This document shows positions 3,319-39,740 of a DNA stretch of 42,390 nt, one piece after another (positions within the stretch are counted from its first letter, which is position 1; each line of letters opens with the position of its first letter). A model generated the notes under the pieces. It had not been told where the DNA came from. It made no database searches and saw only the letters and a program-made list of their open reading frames with translations. Source of the DNA: a virus; IMG/VR virus record IMGVR_UViG_3300034683_000161, positions 1 to 42,390 of that record, one strand, 5' to 3'. Position numbers and translations under genes: made by a program.

Positions 3319-3876
3319 CTAATCAGCAGATTCCGCTTCAGAATACGACAGCGATCCTTCTCGTTGCATTCTCACGTAATCGTGAACGAGTTCACCCACA
3401 TGAAATTCCTTCACGATTCGTTCGGGATTGAGAAAGCGTTTATCTTCATTGAAGAGGTCTTCTTTCTTTCCCCAAACCAGTACGAACCGAGTAACTGTAT
3501 CTGGTTCATCCTCCACCGTGTAGAATACGTAGCCAGTACCGAGGTCCATCAGGCATGCGTTGATGGTCGCCACAGTGCTATGGAAACTCGGGTATTCGAA
3601 TGCCCCACGGTCCGTCGCGTTGTAGTACGTGTGCGGGAGAATGGCGGACTTGGACCCTAAGGCCAGCATCTCGCCACCGAACCGATGTACCAGCCAGGAC
3701 AAGAACCTGGTCACTATCGCGACGGCGATGTGATCGTACTGTTCACGCTGAAGCTTGATCTTTTCGTCGGGTACCTTATGCTGATTGATCACTTTTTCTT
3801 CCTTCTGTTGGGAGTGTTCACCATCGAGTACGTCAAGACCTATGAAATCGTCAGGGCTGAACACGTTTCCGCTCAT
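3319..3876 (-). CDS. Hypothetical protein, 185 aa
   Basis: Not recognised. The ATG at 3876 has a good GAGGAGGG site. The stop of the upstream gene overlaps this start as ATGA, so the two are co-transcribed and probably translationally coupled. The first 40 residues are charged and polar; residues 45-150 look like a compact alpha/beta domain (a hydrophobic helix around AVAIVTRFLSWLV, then a strand-rich part). No catalytic motif seen. Confidence 0.8.
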   Translation of the reverse strand: MSGNVFSPDDFIGLDVLDGEHSQQKEEKVINQHKVPDEKIKLQREQYDHIAVAIVTRFLSWLVHRFGGEMLALGSKSAILPHTYYNATDRGAFEYPSFHSTVATINACLMDLGTGYVFYTVEDEPDTVTRFVLVWGKKEDLFNEDKRFLNPERIVKEFHVGELVHDYVRMQREGSLSYSEAESAD

Positions 3877-4166
3877 GCTGATCCCTCCTCTGGATCGAAT
3901 AATATTGGATAATCTCGTCCGGTTATCAGTTTGAAATATTCTTCAGGATATAAATGCGGCAGGATTCTTTTTTCGAAAATTTCTTTGTCTGTAGCATTTG
4001 GATGCTTGTCACGATACGGCGTGGTGGGGTACTTCAAAAATATCTCATTGTACGTGACAGAAACATTTTCAAATCCGTGCTCTGGACAAAATTTTTCGAG
4101 TTTTATTCCATCTACGCGATATGCCGCGATTATGAATTCTCGAATATCCATGTATTTCTCAGACAC
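3873..4166 (-). CDS. Hypothetical protein, 97 aa (GTG start)
   Basis: Not recognised. It begins with GTG at 4166 behind AAAGGAGGTGA, a near-perfect match to the 16S tail and strong enough to explain the non-ATG start. It overlaps the downstream gene by ATGA. The protein is small and soluble, rich in aromatic residues and proline, with a single Cys and no CxxC pair. It is the first gene after the structured RNA region. Confidence 0.8.
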   Translation of the reverse strand: MSEKYMDIREFIIAAYRVDGIKLEKFCPEHGFENVSVTYNEIFLKYPTTPYRDKHPNATDKEIFEKRILPHLYPEEYFKLITGRDYPILFDPEEGSA

Positions 4167-4216
4167 AGTCTATCACCTCCTTTAAACAAAAAAGATCATT
4201 TCAACATAAAGACATA

Positions 4217-4251
4217 GGGACGCCAGGAGCTTGTAGGCTCCTGGCGTTCCC
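4217..4251. terminator. Hairpin at one edge of the structured RNA region
   Basis: 14-bp stem with one bulged base and a TTGTAG loop. On the minus strand it could end a transcript coming from the RNA region; on the plus strand it could be the first helix of that RNA. On the minus side a short T-run appears about 25 bases later, too far for a classic terminator. Confidence 0.6.
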
Positions 4252-5321
4252 ATCGTAAGGCTCTCTTTCGTTTCCCGTGGTAAGTGCATGACCTACGAGA
4301 CGGACGATGTATTCCACCACGATTGCCATCGGGGCGGTTGTATTCAAATCGTCTCGTAGGGGTTTCTCCTGCCGGAGCTTAACCGATGGCCACCCCATCG
4401 TGCTGATCGGCGGAGAACCCATAGTCGTTTGCACCACCACCAATGTGCGGCCGGGCCATCACGGTACCGGCGGCTTCTACCCCAAACGTTTCTCCCATCG
4501 TCAGGACGTTCAGGGTAATAGGTGTGATGTAGCTGATGTAGCTGTAGACCATGGCGTTCCGGATTTTCCTCCTGTGTCCGAATTCACACCTTAGGTAGCA
4601 CCCGTCTTTTGGCGATTGTCCGGGTACCAATACATTTTACCCAACCCATTGTTCATCACCAGTCGATCACGAGTCGCTAAACTCGGTCACGTCCAGCAAT
4701 ATACTAAACAGGTCAAGCCCAAGTCAGCGCATCTTTCTCTAGATAGTCTAAGATAACTTTGTATCTATTTTCTATCCCTGGTCTATGGTGCGAGTAATGC
4801 CCAGTGAGAAAGTAGCGATACGCGCTTCATCAGTTCGCCGGTCGTGTTTATACCCACAGTCCAGCGCGTCCTTGGGTCCTCCGTCAGGGATTATCCCTAC
4901 GCAGAGAGTTTCGGTGAGCTACTGCGAACCAGATTGACGCCCACCAATACGCGCACCCCAGCGGCGGCACGTCGTCGCGGACGGGGCACGAAACCGCACC
5001 TGAAACGGCCAGATCGCCCGAAGTGTGGGCAGGGCCAATGGTGCGGTAAGTGAGCTGGGAGGGTTATCGAATACCGCGATCGTTGAGGACATCCTAACCG
5101 GGTAAGCCTGCCGAGAAGTTCTCGTTGCACGCTAGTCACCAGTCAAGTCCACCGAACTACGCATTCTCCGTGCACTGCACTGGATGCGCACGCAATACCC
5201 GATTACCCTCTCCAGCAATTTGTTTGCCGGGAAAGAATCGATCATTCTTTCGACACCGTCGAGGATCGAAACTCTCCCGGCGCGATACGGATAAGTTGGA
5301 CCGAATCCGCACCGAAATATT
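4252..5321. ncRNA. Candidate giant structured RNA, about 1.1 kb
   Basis: No credible gene is present, yet helices follow one another through the region. Examples, as paired arms: 4292-4302/4350-4360 (11 bp, perfect), enclosing 4319-4327/4333-4341; 4361-4374/4408-4419 with two bulged U, enclosing 4384-4389/4395-4400; 4520-4527/4584-4591; 4670-4674/4681-4685; 4733-4739/4806-4812 enclosing 4740-4745/4762-4767; 4820-4826/4863-4869; 4900-4904/4922-4926; 4961-4966/4973-4978; 4993-5000/5040-5047 with 5007-5010/5033-5036 and 5016-5019/5027-5030 nested inside; 5226-5232/5275-5281 closing a junction with 5233-5238/5244-5249 and 5250-5254/5258-5262. Strand is uncertain: G-U pairs favour plus in several helices (4961-4978, 4319-4341) and minus in two (5226-5281, 4993-5047). 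Base composition is more GC-rich than the neighbours. Size and ornate folding recall the GOLLD and ROOL classes of phage RNAs, but I cannot match it to either. Confidence 0.7.
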
Positions 5322-5352
5322 GACGACCAGTAGGTAGGAGCTACTGGTCGTC
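5322..5352. terminator. Hairpin at the other edge of the RNA region
   Basis: 12-bp perfect stem (GACGACCAGTAG) with a 7-base loop. It could end the 213-aa gene (stop at 5411) on the minus strand, end the structured RNA on the plus strand, or both. No U-tract. Confidence 0.7.
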
Positions 5353-5410
5353 GTAGCACAGAGTCGAGGTTGAGCCTGTGCATGTTTGGCGAAGCGTTCT
5401 GCCTATGGCA

Positions 5411-6052
5411 TTACGCCGACATGTATTTCTTGACAATTCCTTCGGCGAGTGGGGACTCGTAGAATTCCCAGAAGAGATGAACCATGAGATACATTGCGTA
5501 TACCTCACGAGACAACACTCCCTGCTCACCATGATCGACGACCGTCCCGACATCTTTGATCGGGACGTAGAGCGCGGTCAGTACTTCGACGTCGTCATCG
5601 TCTTCGACCGCTACGCATGGAACATAGGTACCGAGAGAAGTCGCATGCTTCTCGATGTGCCACAAGACCAGACCGACCAGTTGGTCGTATTCTTCCTGGC
5701 TCATGCCGACGTTACCCGAGTGATCAATCCCACCATTCATTGCGCTGAGGTACGTAGCATTGATCGCGATGGTGATCAGATTTCTGGTGTTGTTTCTGAT
5801 CACGCGAATCACGTCAATGGTCGGAACCTTGTCGATATCGGTCATCCGATATTCACCGATTCCTTTTTCGGAATCGCGGAGAAGTTCCGATTTCCAGGTC
5901 GACGGAACCACAGATCCTTCAGGGATCTGGAGTTCTTCGAATTTGCTGGAAACTTCCCGTCTGGCCAATTCCGTACAAAAGACTTTGAGTATTGCTTCGG
6001 CAGTCTCAAGATCTTTCACCGGAAGGATCGAAATCCAGTCAGGGTATTGCAC
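5411..6052 (-). CDS. Hypothetical protein, 213 aa (GTG start)
   Basis: Not recognised. I choose the GTG at 6052 because GGAGGT lies 5 bases upstream; a GTG at 6070 is possible but would place that site inside the gene. The protein is acidic, soluble and mixed alpha/beta, with a run of four Asp near residue 155 and no catalytic motif I can name. Upstream, a near match to the ATATATTAC element (TATATAAC, 6106-6113) fits the accessory-gene class. The hairpin at 5322-5352 lies 58 bases past the stop, an unusually long gap here. Confidence 0.8.
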   Translation of the reverse strand: MQYPDWISILPVKDLETAEAILKVFCTELARREVSSKFEELQIPEGSVVPSTWKSELLRDSEKGIGEYRMTDIDKVPTIDVIRVIRNNTRNLITIAINATYLSAMNGGIDHSGNVGMSQEEYDQLVGLVLWHIEKHATSLGTYVPCVAVEDDDDVEVLTALYVPIKDVGTVVDHGEQGVLSREVYAMYLMVHLFWEFYESPLAEGIVKKYMSA

Positions 6053-6105
6053 AGATACCTCCAAATACACAACGTTGCGAAAAGTTTTAACCGGTCATCA
6101 CAGTA

Positions 6106-6113
6106 GTTATATA
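6106..6113 (-). promoter_or_regulatory. TATATAAC, near match to the ATATATTAC element
   Basis: One base from TATATTAC, 53 bases before the GTG at 6052, within the same distance range as the exact copies. It lies in the 125-bp divergent spacer between the minus gene and the plus gene at 6178. Confidence 0.35.
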
Positions 6114-6177: not shown

Positions 6178-6999
6178 ATGCACAGTGCAATCGAAGCATG
6201 TTTCAGAGAAATAGATCGATCCATACCAATCGAAATTCTTCAGAGAGCATTCCCTCTACTTCCAGGACAATCTCTCGATGATGCAATCCATACTGAAGTA
6301 ATCGGCGCACACGTGCTTCCTGATTGCAACCTCATGGGTGGGCGTAAGAAAGATATCGTACTTGATTCCAGATGGATCGAATTGGCTGAAACACCTGAGC
6401 CATTCGTTTATGGAAATACGCAGTCGTATACTCTCTATCGCATTCCTGCGGAAGCTAGAGAATTTCGTCCTATTTCAAAAGTCATAGGAGTGCGGTATCC
6501 ATACGCACTCAATGATGGACTCCAGACCCCAACCTATGGACTCAGTCTGGCTGGTGCAGGAACTACCATGGACGGTCTTTCCTCCCAGATTCTGAACTCG
6601 CATACCTTCGGAAACAAAATGGTTCTCCCGACGCCTATTCTTAAGTCTGGAGATATCGTACAACTTACTCCGAATAACGTATCACATATTCAGAATGTAT
6701 GGGTACTCGAATGTCGTCTTTATTACGACGAAGAGTTTACCAATCTGAATGAACAAGCGATAATGACCCTCATGCATCTCGTACGCACTGCAGTCGAGAT
6801 GTACATCTACAATAAGTTGATCATCAAGACGGATATGGCATTTCTGTCTGGTGGTCAGCAACTCGGAAAGATGAAAGAAATCATCGAGAGTTACTCAGAC
6901 CGAAGAGAGCTGTACTTTCAGTTACTGAAACAGTTCAATGGTGCTGCCATCATTCTGGATCCGGAAAAGCGTAGAGCACGTATCCGCGATGCTCTCTAG
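6178..6999 (+). CDS. Probable virion protein, 273 aa
   Basis: No family is recognised with certainty. The ATG follows GGGAGG at good spacing. The protein is soluble, without signal peptide; its middle is beta-rich and glycine-containing (residues 100-180), followed by an alpha-helical end (residues 195-273). An ATTCTATG element of the type found before terminase and tail genes lies just upstream, which is my main reason for a structural role (head, neck or tail). It is followed after 9 bases by the ParB-like gene, so the two form one operon ended by the hairpin at 7413-7442. Confidence 0.8.
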   Translation: MHSAIEACFREIDRSIPIEILQRAFPLLPGQSLDDAIHTEVIGAHVLPDCNLMGGRKKDIVLDSRWIELAETPEPFVYGNTQSYTLYRIPAEAREFRPISKVIGVRYPYALNDGLQTPTYGLSLAGAGTTMDGLSSQILNSHTFGNKMVLPTPILKSGDIVQLTPNNVSHIQNVWVLECRLYYDEEFTNLNEQAIMTLMHLVRTAVEMYIYNKLIIKTDMAFLSGGQQLGKMKEIIESYSDRRELYFQLLKQFNGAAIILDPEKRRARIRDAL

Positions 7000-7008
7000 G
7001 AGATACAG

Positions 7009-7404
7009 ATGAAACACATTAAAAAACTTCTCGAAGATCCTGACAACTTCACTCCTCCCGAATATACCAGACAGAAACACTCCTACGAAGGAAAAATCTG
7101 GTATGTGGAAAATCTTGTCGATCTTGCGAAAGATCTTCCCGTATTTGAAAAACCAGTAGAAGAACTTCGAGCACTTGCTCTTTCTGTGAAATACCCAGGA
7201 ATGACTGAAGGGACGTATCTTGATTTTGCGTACCATGCCGCAGTTGCATCTAATGCGGATCTCAGTTATCCCATCATTCTTGCGGAAGATGGTCGAATCA
7301 TGGATGGTCACCACCGGGTGATCAAAGCTCTGATGGAAAAAAAGAAAACCATCAAGGTGGTTCAATTTACCATCGATCCAGAACCGGATGATTTTGTAGA
7401 ATAG
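7009..7404 (+). CDS. ParB/Srx-fold protein, 131 aa
   Basis: The second half (residues 86-120) carries YPIILAEDGRIMDGHHRV, the hallmark of the ParB N-terminal-like/sulfiredoxin fold, with the DGHHR box at residues 99-103. Family members bind nucleotides (CTP or ATP), and some act as nucleases. There is no helix-turn-helix DNA-binding domain after it, so this is not a full partition protein. The first 80 residues are helical and unknown. It is co-transcribed with the 273-aa gene upstream. Substrate and role are not evident; a nuclease or nucleotide-dependent switch is possible. Confidence 0.8.
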   Translation: MKHIKKLLEDPDNFTPPEYTRQKHSYEGKIWYVENLVDLAKDLPVFEKPVEELRALALSVKYPGMTEGTYLDFAYHAAVASNADLSYPIILAEDGRIMDGHHRVIKALMEKKKTIKVVQFTIDPEPDDFVE

Positions 7405-12962: not shown

Positions 12963-15080
12963 TTAGAACCGCAGCATTCGTAGTGTTTGGCGCATCAGTG
13001 ATGGATCGACTCTACTCACTTTACCTGCGGCATCTTCTGCTCGTATTACCTGAACTTCCGAATCATCCTCGTCTCCCTCAACGAGAGATTCAAGATAAGT
13101 CAGTTCACGGATGTACGAACTTCTAACTGCAGGGTATGTGGTATTTCGAATTTCTTTCTTGATTTCTGATATGCGATTGCGCAATTCCGTTTGTGCTTTT
13201 CTATCATCCGGATTGACTTTTTCCCCACTGCTATTTACACCAGAAAGGAAATCGTTCTTATCTAGTTTGTAGTATTGGAGATTCCTACCGAAATGAACGA
13301 ACCAGCATGCCAGAAGATAGGCGATGACCATATCGTCATGTCCACCATTCGAATGGTCAATGCGGTCATTCTTCAGACGAAGTTGTGAAAGTTCCGCAAT
13401 CAGTGTCAAGTCATGAATACGAGTAGCATTGAGCTCCACTGTCTTCATGAGCGTAGTTTTGTACAAAGTGTTTCTCGAATTCTCACCTTTTCCTGCAGTG
13501 ACGTATCCGAGATACTTCTTGTCTGCACCAAGCTCAGCATCGCTTGAAGAGACATCTACTGTATTGTACGGAGCAACTCCACGGTTCTGGAATACTTCAT
13601 TGTAGATTCTAGTCCATGGGTTAATTCCAGCTCTACGAAGAATACCGCAGATGATACTGAGGATTATTGATCCAGTACTCTTTCTTTCAGGAACAAGAAA
13701 CAAGTTGTCGTGTTTTACCATGTACTCACCAAGGAACGTTGCGAATCTGACGAGGTCGGATTCGTTGCATCTGGCAGTACAGACAACCGAAAGATCTGAT
13801 GGATCTACCATGCAAAGAGTGGTAAAGTCACGTCCGATGTTTTCGGATGTATCTAGTCCCATAATGAGCGGTCTACGATAGATCTTACTGTTGATAACGA
13901 CAGCAGGATCTTGATACCATCTGAAAGCATAGCCTCCATTGATCTCAGTTTTCACTGGTTCCATCTGTGAAGATTTGATTCGCTCGAGTGTCTGTACAGG
14001 GATGATACTCCCGATGACACCAGCTTGTCTCATGTTGAGATAATCTCGAGCGATTTCTTCTGGAGTACCACCAGTACGAGCTGATGTTTCTTTGAACCAC
14101 TGATGTGACTTATCGAGCTGCAAATACGAGAAAACGGCATACACCATCTTGTTGGTAGAATGGCGTTCAACTAGACTATGCAGTTCTTCTCTATTTTTGC
14201 AATCGTAGATCTGTTCAGTGAATACCATCGACTTTTCGATGAGACTCAAAGCAAACTGAGTTTCAGGTGAATTGAGCTTGCCGGCAGTCGAAGTCAGGAT
14301 GTTACTGTGCGGTAAACCAAGTTCCTTGGCCTGACCTGCAGCGGTGGTAGTTGCAGAAACTGCTGATGGATATGAAAGATTGATGTATCTAAAATATTCC
14401 GTTTCGTCCCAGTGCTGACAAGGAGTAGACATACCACGTCCGAGTTTCTCGGCGCTGAATGTATCACCTTGTGCAGTGAATGTCTGATACTGGTTATTGA
14501 GGGCATCATACGACAGACCTTCTTTACGCTCAGTATCTTTGAGCTTATTTCTCAAAAGAAGATACTGAGGAAGACCATTTCGTATATCTTTGAGTCGTTT
14601 GACGTTTTCCTGAACAAGGTCATTGTCTTTGGTAAGCATGGCTATGTTGAACTGAGTAGCCATGAAATACATTACCCAAGAAATGATTGCTTGGGTAGAC
14701 ATCGTCTTACCGCACTGGCGTGCCATAACGAGATAGACATCTATGTTGTTAAGGAATAACCACGTAAGAGCCAGGTTTCCTCTACTGAGTTCATAGGTAA
14801 TGTTTTTACCTGCAGCAGGAATGCGAATTACTTCTCTCAGATAGTACCAAGGATTCAATTTGCACTCAAGTGCGATACGTCCAGCAAGTTCTTCTGAGTT
14901 ATCTTTTAGATCGTGAGGATCGTATTTTGCTATATCTTTTTGTATGATGGACATGAAGAACATGTTGTTCTGTATACCCATCTTCTTAAGAATCGCATGT
15001 TGTTTGATAAACGACATGTTCTTTGTCGCGGTGTGAATACTTGCACCTTGTAGTGCGAAATCTTCTGCGAACAAGATCAT
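12963..15080 (-). CDS. terL: Terminase large subunit, 705 aa
   Basis: The packaging motor and DNA-cutting enzyme. The ATPase half has a Walker A box ARQCGKT (residues 120-126) and a Walker B-like HWDETEY (223-229). The nuclease half has the RNase H-like acidic residues: PLIMGLDTS (about 404-412) and GHDDMVIAY near residue 596. Its length is typical of giant-phage terminases (phiKZ gp25 is similar in size). No small subunit is visible next to it. An ATTCTATG element lies 30 bases upstream and a 14-bp hairpin directly after the stop, so it is a single-gene late unit. The ribosome site (AGGG) is weak. Confidence 0.93.
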   Translation of the reverse strand: MILFAEDFALQGASIHTATKNMSFIKQHAILKKMGIQNNMFFMSIIQKDIAKYDPHDLKDNSEELAGRIALECKLNPWYYLREVIRIPAAGKNITYELSRGNLALTWLFLNNIDVYLVMARQCGKTMSTQAIISWVMYFMATQFNIAMLTKDNDLVQENVKRLKDIRNGLPQYLLLRNKLKDTERKEGLSYDALNNQYQTFTAQGDTFSAEKLGRGMSTPCQHWDETEYFRYINLSYPSAVSATTTAAGQAKELGLPHSNILTSTAGKLNSPETQFALSLIEKSMVFTEQIYDCKNREELHSLVERHSTNKMVYAVFSYLQLDKSHQWFKETSARTGGTPEEIARDYLNMRQAGVIGSIIPVQTLERIKSSQMEPVKTEINGGYAFRWYQDPAVVINSKIYRRPLIMGLDTSENIGRDFTTLCMVDPSDLSVVCTARCNESDLVRFATFLGEYMVKHDNLFLVPERKSTGSIILSIICGILRRAGINPWTRIYNEVFQNRGVAPYNTVDVSSSDAELGADKKYLGYVTAGKGENSRNTLYKTTLMKTVELNATRIHDLTLIAELSQLRLKNDRIDHSNGGHDDMVIAYLLACWFVHFGRNLQYYKLDKNDFLSGVNSSGEKVNPDDRKAQTELRNRISEIKKEIRNTTYPAVRSSYIRELTYLESLVEGDEDDSEVQVIRAEDAAGKVSRVDPSLMRQTLRMLRF

Positions 15081-28125: not shown

Positions 28126-28154
28126 AAAAAAGAAAGCCTTCAGGACTACGGTTA

Positions 28155-28188
28155 AGAGGACAGGGACCCACGTGGGTCCCTGTCCTCT
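28155..28188. terminator. Hairpin between tube gene and opposing operon
   Basis: Perfect 16-bp inverted repeat (AGAGGACAGGGACCCA) with only CG between the arms, so effectively a 14-bp stem. It lies 29 bases after the tube stop and 17 from the opposing stop at 28206. Serves both strands; no U-tract. Confidence 0.8.
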
Positions 28189-28205
28189 GTACCTACATCG
28201 ATTTC

Positions 28206-28634
28206 TTATTCTTTATACTGACTGAGTTCGTTTGGGTACATGAATAAGATATCGAGAGACTGTGCGTATTTTGCTGATAGCCCTAATGGACCTAATTCAG
28301 GATATCCTTGATCTTTGCGATGGAATTCGATTCTTTTCCATTCACTACCAGCCCACTGATGTACTACACCCACGGGGTCACCGTAAGTACCGTTTTCGTC
28401 AGTTATGCATACGAGTATATTCTGTCGATTTTCTTCAGGAATCGCGTCACGTGCGGCGATATCTGCGACGTAGCGAATGAAATGCGTGTGTAGTAATTTG
28501 GTGTCAGTGGACATCTCATTTACGCCTGCGTAATGATTCTTGAACCACTCGTACGATAATGGTTCTGGTTCTTTCCGAATATTTTCCTGGGACTTCGTAT
28601 CGCCGTGATCATTGGGAAGTTCGAAAGGATGCAT
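28206..28634 (-). CDS. Hypothetical protein, 142 aa
   Basis: Not recognised. The ATG at 28634 follows AGAAAGGG; a longer frame to 28745 overlaps the upstream gene and has no ribosome site. The protein is soluble, with a Pro/Glu/His-rich first third and a compact rest with Trp-containing strands. It lies 17 bases after the 237-aa gene and is co-transcribed with it. Confidence 0.75.
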   Translation of the reverse strand: MHPFELPNDHGDTKSQENIRKEPEPLSYEWFKNHYAGVNEMSTDTKLLHTHFIRYVADIAARDAIPEENRQNILVCITDENGTYGDPVGVVHQWAGSEWKRIEFHRKDQGYPELGPLGLSAKYAQSLDILFMYPNELSQYKE

Positions 28635-39526: not shown

Positions 39527-39601
39527 AAGTTCCTTCTGTTATAAAGTAACCACGCCTAGTCAAATTTGATGTAATGGAAAAGAAAAATCTGCGGCACAAA
39601 T

Positions 39602-39740
39602 TCTGGAAACTGCCAGGAAAAAGACCACCTTAACACCCTAAGGATATCCGAAGATACCTCAAAGTGAAAAGACGATCTTCTTCCCGGCAGTCGTCCGACT
39701 GTACCTGGAATGACGCTATGCGGTATCCACCGCACGAGAT
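39602..39740 (-). ncRNA. Candidate structured RNA or leader upstream of the ligase
   Basis: The 265-base spacer 39527-39791 has no gene. On the minus strand, 39676-39690 pairs with 39610-39624 over 15 continuous base pairs, two of them G-U (CUGCCGGGAAGAAGA with UCUUUUUCCUGGCAG). On the plus strand these two pairs become A-C mismatches, so minus is the likely sense. Inside lie a hairpin GGUAUC-UUCG-GAUAUC (39643-39658) with the very stable UUCG loop and a neighbouring one (39628-39643). Before it lie 39719-39734 (6 bp) and an alternative 5-bp hairpin at 39688-39701. It could be a ligase leader, a processed small RNA or a terminator substitute, since no standard hairpin follows the upstream gene. 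No known riboswitch is recognised. Confidence 0.55.

Follow-up and report, generated by a model that had tools for sequence, protein, structure and literature searches.

The spacer at positions 4167-5410 of the window (the whole stretch of 42,390 bases that was analysed, IMG/VR virus record IMGVR_UViG_3300034683_000161) was found to contain a region (4217-5352) that is noncoding for most of its length, biased towards the minus strand in its folding and endowed, on that strand, with an exceptionally well-defined 5′ fold. The unusual structure consists of a 5′ domain of approximately 390 nt and of a 3′ junction, and falls short of the full 1.1 kb, about half of which is unexceptionally folded by the standard of this genome. 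We tentatively favour the view that, in a phiKZ-like jumbo phage, the region forms part of a minus-strand operon, as a structured stretch that is specific to this lineage and for the most part untranslated. A first-pass annotation, made from the sequence alone, had described it as a giant, ornate RNA without genes, which could be a member of the GOLLD or ROOL classes or a class of its own. The present analysis supports an RNA of the minus strand that is structured and mostly untranslated, but neither membership of those two classes nor structure over the full length.

The large terminase subunit (12963-15080, minus strand) is 33-34% identical to those of phiKZ and of jumbo phages of Erwinia and Vibrio, and identity reaches 41-50% with those of metagenomic relatives, values by which the contig is assigned, as a genome fragment, to the phiKZ-like jumbo phages. 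With its 1244 nt, the spacer is the longest of the contig (the runner-up measures 347 nt), and its GC content (0.54 versus 0.43 in the other intergenic DNA and 0.457 over the contig) confirms the enrichment over the surroundings that had been noticed initially. Codon periodicity is absent, the SNR being 1.2 and 0.9 for the two halves (range 0.9-1.3) as compared with 2-10 in most other windows; no long open frame with such periodicity was found in the region, and comparison in all six frames revealed similarity to no protein.

The description of the region as being without genes holds as far as recognisable long genes are concerned, but it is insecure in the 3′ third, where a small orphan gene or a decayed gene is a real possibility. 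A candidate gene for a 57-residue protein (4379-4552, minus strand, ATG start) uses codons much as genes do: its score, 0.115 per codon (−0.005 to 0.226 for the contig's real genes), exceeds the 99.9th percentile of the null distribution (−0.16 ± 0.076 for shuffled sequences), although the frame was chosen as the best of many. The neighbouring minus-strand frame over 4200-4400 also scores high, so that two coding-like minus frames are found within 4200-4552. An AGGAGG sequence precedes the ATG of the candidate gene by 15 nt, too far for a typical start; its product has no homologues in Pfam, in phages or in the relatives, and the AlphaFold model obtained for it is poor (pLDDT 59).

All the helices that had been named initially were recovered, among them the 11-bp perfect pair 4292-4302/4350-4360 and the three-layer hairpin at 4993-5047, the latter with pair probabilities of 0.94-0.98 on the minus strand. 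At 5226-5281 the GCCGGGA/TCCCGGC closure is present, but the minus-strand fold is that of one stem with nested helices rather than of a junction holding two hairpins. Seven perfect arms of at least 8 bp were counted in the region, as compared with a mean of 0.7 and a maximum of 3 in shuffled sequences. The whole region folds better than its shuffles (z of −10.5 on the minus and −5.0 on the plus strand; −6.7 and −2.5, respectively, without the bounding hairpins), but the rest of the contig does likewise. In the same test on 530-nt windows, mostly coding, the mean z was −3.5 (minus) and −3.2 (plus) in a contig-wide control that covers 118 of 158 tasks, and the two halves of the region ranked 4th and 18th of 59 windows on the minus strand. 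The mean local z over 120 nt is −1.05/−1.23 here versus −0.6 in the phiKZ region tested. Thus, a folding energy below that of shuffled sequence is a property of this genome and is not special in itself, and the folding z-score was ruled out as proof of a special RNA.

Folding below shuffled extends to coding regions across the whole window, and at the locus L009:10914-11330 an open frame of 138 aa appears, by eye, to be crowded with perfect hairpins. The two strongest local structures of the contig, both on the minus strand, lie elsewhere, namely at 39592-39705 (z −10.1), which is intergenic, and at 28139-28286 (z −8.9), which surrounds a gene-end hairpin.

More discriminating information came from the comparison of the two strands and from the definition of the fold. 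The initial description had named no strand; the folding data favour the minus one, since the energy difference between minus and plus is −33 kcal/mol for one half and −24 kcal/mol for the other, ranking 1 and 3 of 59 towards minus. Positional entropy and the share of bases with a pairing probability above 0.9 were determined for 1,052 windows, each of 330 nt, in a grid covering the two strands. Of these, 5041-5370 on the minus strand ranked first by both measures (lowest entropy and highest fraction paired), as opposed to ranks 358 and 198 for the same interval on the plus strand; the overlapping window 4961-5290 (minus) ranked 12 by entropy and 4 by fraction paired. The probability that the top-ranked fold falls inside the region by chance is approximately 3% (1136/42390).

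On the minus strand, this best-defined 5′ domain (5384-4993) is predicted to comprise four structural elements: a hairpin (5314-5283), a nested stem (5281-5226), a long arm with a three-way junction (5216-5054) and the three-layer hairpin (5047-4993). The middle segment (4992-4441) has ordinary structure, with entropy ranks of 194-757 of 1052 for window starts 4401-4801 and an ordinary fold also within 4561-4880. It is followed by a predicted three-way junction at 4440-4277 that includes the 11-bp pair; with ranks of 49 and 66 of 1052 for 4241-4570 (minus), the 3′ part is moderately well defined. Structure is therefore concentrated in 5384-4993 and, to a lesser extent, in 4440-4217.

The neighbourhood of the region suggests how such a stretch might be expressed. 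On its upstream side lies an orphan gene of the minus strand (5411-6070; 219 aa, codon score 0.168 per codon, weak PHROG match with E=0.0015), and the next gene on the same strand (3873-4166; 97 aa) has a GTG start and a AAAGGAGGTGA ribosome site. The two strong hairpins that had been proposed to bound the region do exist, one of 12 bp and without a U-tract after the 5411-6070 gene (5322-5352, minus) and one of 14 bp that closes the region (4217-4250, minus), but hairpins of the same kind are found at gene ends throughout the contig: 23 have arms of at least 11 bp, 18 of them intergenic, and U-tracts are absent. The 4217-4250 hairpin is thus of the gene-end type, yet no long protein gene ends there. 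At the 18 intergenic sites an early-promoter motif is often found within approximately 110 nt downstream, an arrangement that would suit a role of the gene-end hairpins as terminators for the phage polymerase.

The promoter motif in question, TATATTAC-N4-GTGA, is common to the relatives G002 and G007 and agrees with those of phiKZ and 201phi2-1 (PMC7058600); AT-rich motifs of this type have been reviewed as early promoters (PMC7598289). With a PWM built from 31 sites of the two relatives, the best matches in the contig are all on the minus strand (3158, 12277, 6113, 12919, 11596 and 30535). The third best (6086-6113, PWM score 17.1), an early-promoter-like TATATAAC-N4-GTGA motif, lies in front of the 5411-6070 gene and is oriented towards the region. 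The scan from 5411 to 4217 gave no match starting inside the region, so that its RNA would derive from read-through or from another promoter class; on the plus strand no strong match is directed into it.

We infer the following course. Transcription would most likely start at the early promoter near 6113 and cross the 5411-6070 gene together with its end hairpin, and read-through (or an unrecognised promoter) would yield an RNA of approximately 1.1 kb. This RNA would open with the compact domain of approximately 390 nt (5384-4993), continue with a loosely folded middle, probably carry the 57-aa mini-gene (4552-4379), which may be translated, and end, before the 3873-4166 gene is reached, in the hairpin 4250-4217. 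As to function, the 5′ domain is probably a stable RNA element that acts in cis, on RNA stability or on control of the downstream genes, or serves as a small RNP scaffold. Taken together, the position in the longest, GC-rich spacer, the absence of 3-periodicity, the minus-strand bias and the top-ranked 5′ fold argue for such an operon stretch, as do the 6113 promoter, the closing gene-end hairpin and the codon usage of 4552-4379. It is weakened by the lack of a promoter motif between the 5352 hairpin and the region and of a homologue, by the chance placement of the fold estimated above and by the 15-nt AGGAGG-ATG spacing. The TATATTAC-N4-GTG promoter motif and the one-strand operon of small orphan genes are as in the early units of the phiKZ/201phi2-1 type, from which the window differs in its 1.2-kb, mostly untranslated stretch, absent at the syntenic place of its closest syntenic relative, L165.

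That relative (46% identity in the 6178-6999 protein and 50-51% in the terminase segment and in the 7009-7404 protein) fills the corresponding interval with small genes, leaving a gap of just 443 nt there. This arrangement would also be expected if the spacer had arisen from decayed accessory genes and had merely the hairpin richness of its background, with no RNA function, an explanation that we consider unlikely. The low folding energies contig-wide and the coding-like codon scores in two minus frames speak for it, but it does not lead one to expect the exceptional 5′ fold and the strand bias, and the six-frame comparison gave no trace of former proteins.

Comparative evidence was sought by several routes. 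By blastn, the region showed no similarity to phages or plasmids, nor to the DNA of related phages, of which a set of 39 records and then one of 42 was compared; a covariance model built from the one sequence of the 5216-5054 arm did not match in the related phage records either. Three exact patterns of the region (17-20-mers) gave nothing beyond chance in IMG/VR, and with an 18-mer two bacterial contigs of GTDB were matched over approximately 22 nt only, at chance level. The proteins encoded at 5411-6070 and 3319-3876, used as bait, brought up no relatives. None of these searches brought up a homologue in which compensating changes would show, and relatives closer than L165 may exist.

The same searches bear on the more far-reaching proposal that the region is an autonomous giant noncoding RNA, made during infection and working in the manner of GOLLD or ROOL as a multimerizing scaffold or cage, which we regard as rather unlikely. 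GOLLD and ROOL, whose role is unknown, are phage-linked RNAs that assemble into cages made of RNA alone and are often located close to tRNA islands (PMC12286853). The size of the region, its multi-way junctions and its bias towards the minus strand would be in keeping with such an RNA, as would its raised GC content and an end hairpin of its own. The region would resemble GOLLD (RF02032) in its length (many GOLLD members exceed 800 nt), as a large structured RNA of a phage, and in its unknown role, and ROOL (RF03087) as a large structured RNA of the phage/prophage kind with multi-way junctions. It differs from the former in the lack of a model match, of a tRNA island and of a conserved 3′ domain identifiable from a single sequence, and from the latter in the lack of a model match and of a tRNA island at the region, the ROOL representative env-120 having 659 nt.

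When the region was compared with all Rfam covariance models, nothing relevant emerged even at E<=10, leaving membership of either class unsupported. The GOLLD model was negative in the contig and in 39 related records, as was the ROOL model, for which no positive control matched. No Rfam family and no tRNA was found across the 42 kb, so that phage tRNA genes of the kind that accompany GOLLD are missing nearby; the contig being a fragment, they may lie beyond its ends. Group I and group II introns, tmRNA, RNase P and riboswitches were likewise considered, and Rfam finds none in the region. Besides these negative results and the absence of a homologue or of covariation, the ordinary folding of the middle (approximately 550 nt) and the failure to find a promoter of its own stand against autonomy. 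A new class of giant ornate RNA is possible but unproven, given that the searches gave no homologue in which to look for compensating changes and that roughly half of the 1.1 kb folds no better than is usual for this genome.

In the 238-kb relative G007, a different stretch (L013:18849-20093) combines a perfect early promoter, tRNA-Pro, approximately 1 kb of structured sequence, a terminator hairpin with a U-tail and tRNA-Gln. The structured part (L013:18925-19998) has a GOLLD-like arrangement, between two tRNA genes with a promoter before and a terminator behind, and no Rfam match. Its existence lends some plausibility to an autonomous RNA in this phage group, but it is dissimilar to the region and, with no detectable sequence similarity, was rejected as its homologue. 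The G007 stretch is the better candidate for a GOLLD/ROOL-like way of working. That the hairpins of the region act instead as cruciforms in a DNA element (a replication origin, or a packaging or recombination site) is very improbable, given that the palindromes and the location in the contig's longest spacer are offset by a fold that is asymmetric between the strands, by GC-rich rather than AT-rich composition and by the absence of a repeat array on reading the sequence by eye.

Returning to the operon stretch that we favour, the region is one sequence for which no relatives were found, and its value is that of a lead. It is conceivable, if improbable, that phiKZ-like jumbo phages have several unrelated classes of approximately 1-kb ornate RNAs, exemplified by the region and by G007, that are made early and are functionally equivalent to GOLLD and ROOL. 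If these phages did make unrelated large structured RNAs early, such RNAs would arise repeatedly in phages, and culturable phiKZ-like relatives would become test systems.

Other RNA features were met in the related records. A phage tmRNA (Rfam RF00023, 100 bits) is present in a jumbo phage relative (G005, L134:12880-13309). Inspection by eye points to group I introns in the relatives G002 and G007; L130:8400-10700 and L111:8080-9220, too, look like group I introns on such inspection alone, one of them around a tRNA-Pro. In Vibrio phage BONAISHI (L006:20072-22455), a gene for a Ro60/TROVE protein has an upstream gap of 765 nt that could hold a Y-like RNA. Finally, a 3.4-kb stretch with no ORF above 64 aa occurs in G041 (L172:9353-12813), and also in L012, with hairpin repeats of 40 nt and long inverted repeats at its boundaries, and 2.1 kb of the L172 stretch recur at 99.95% in a second contig.
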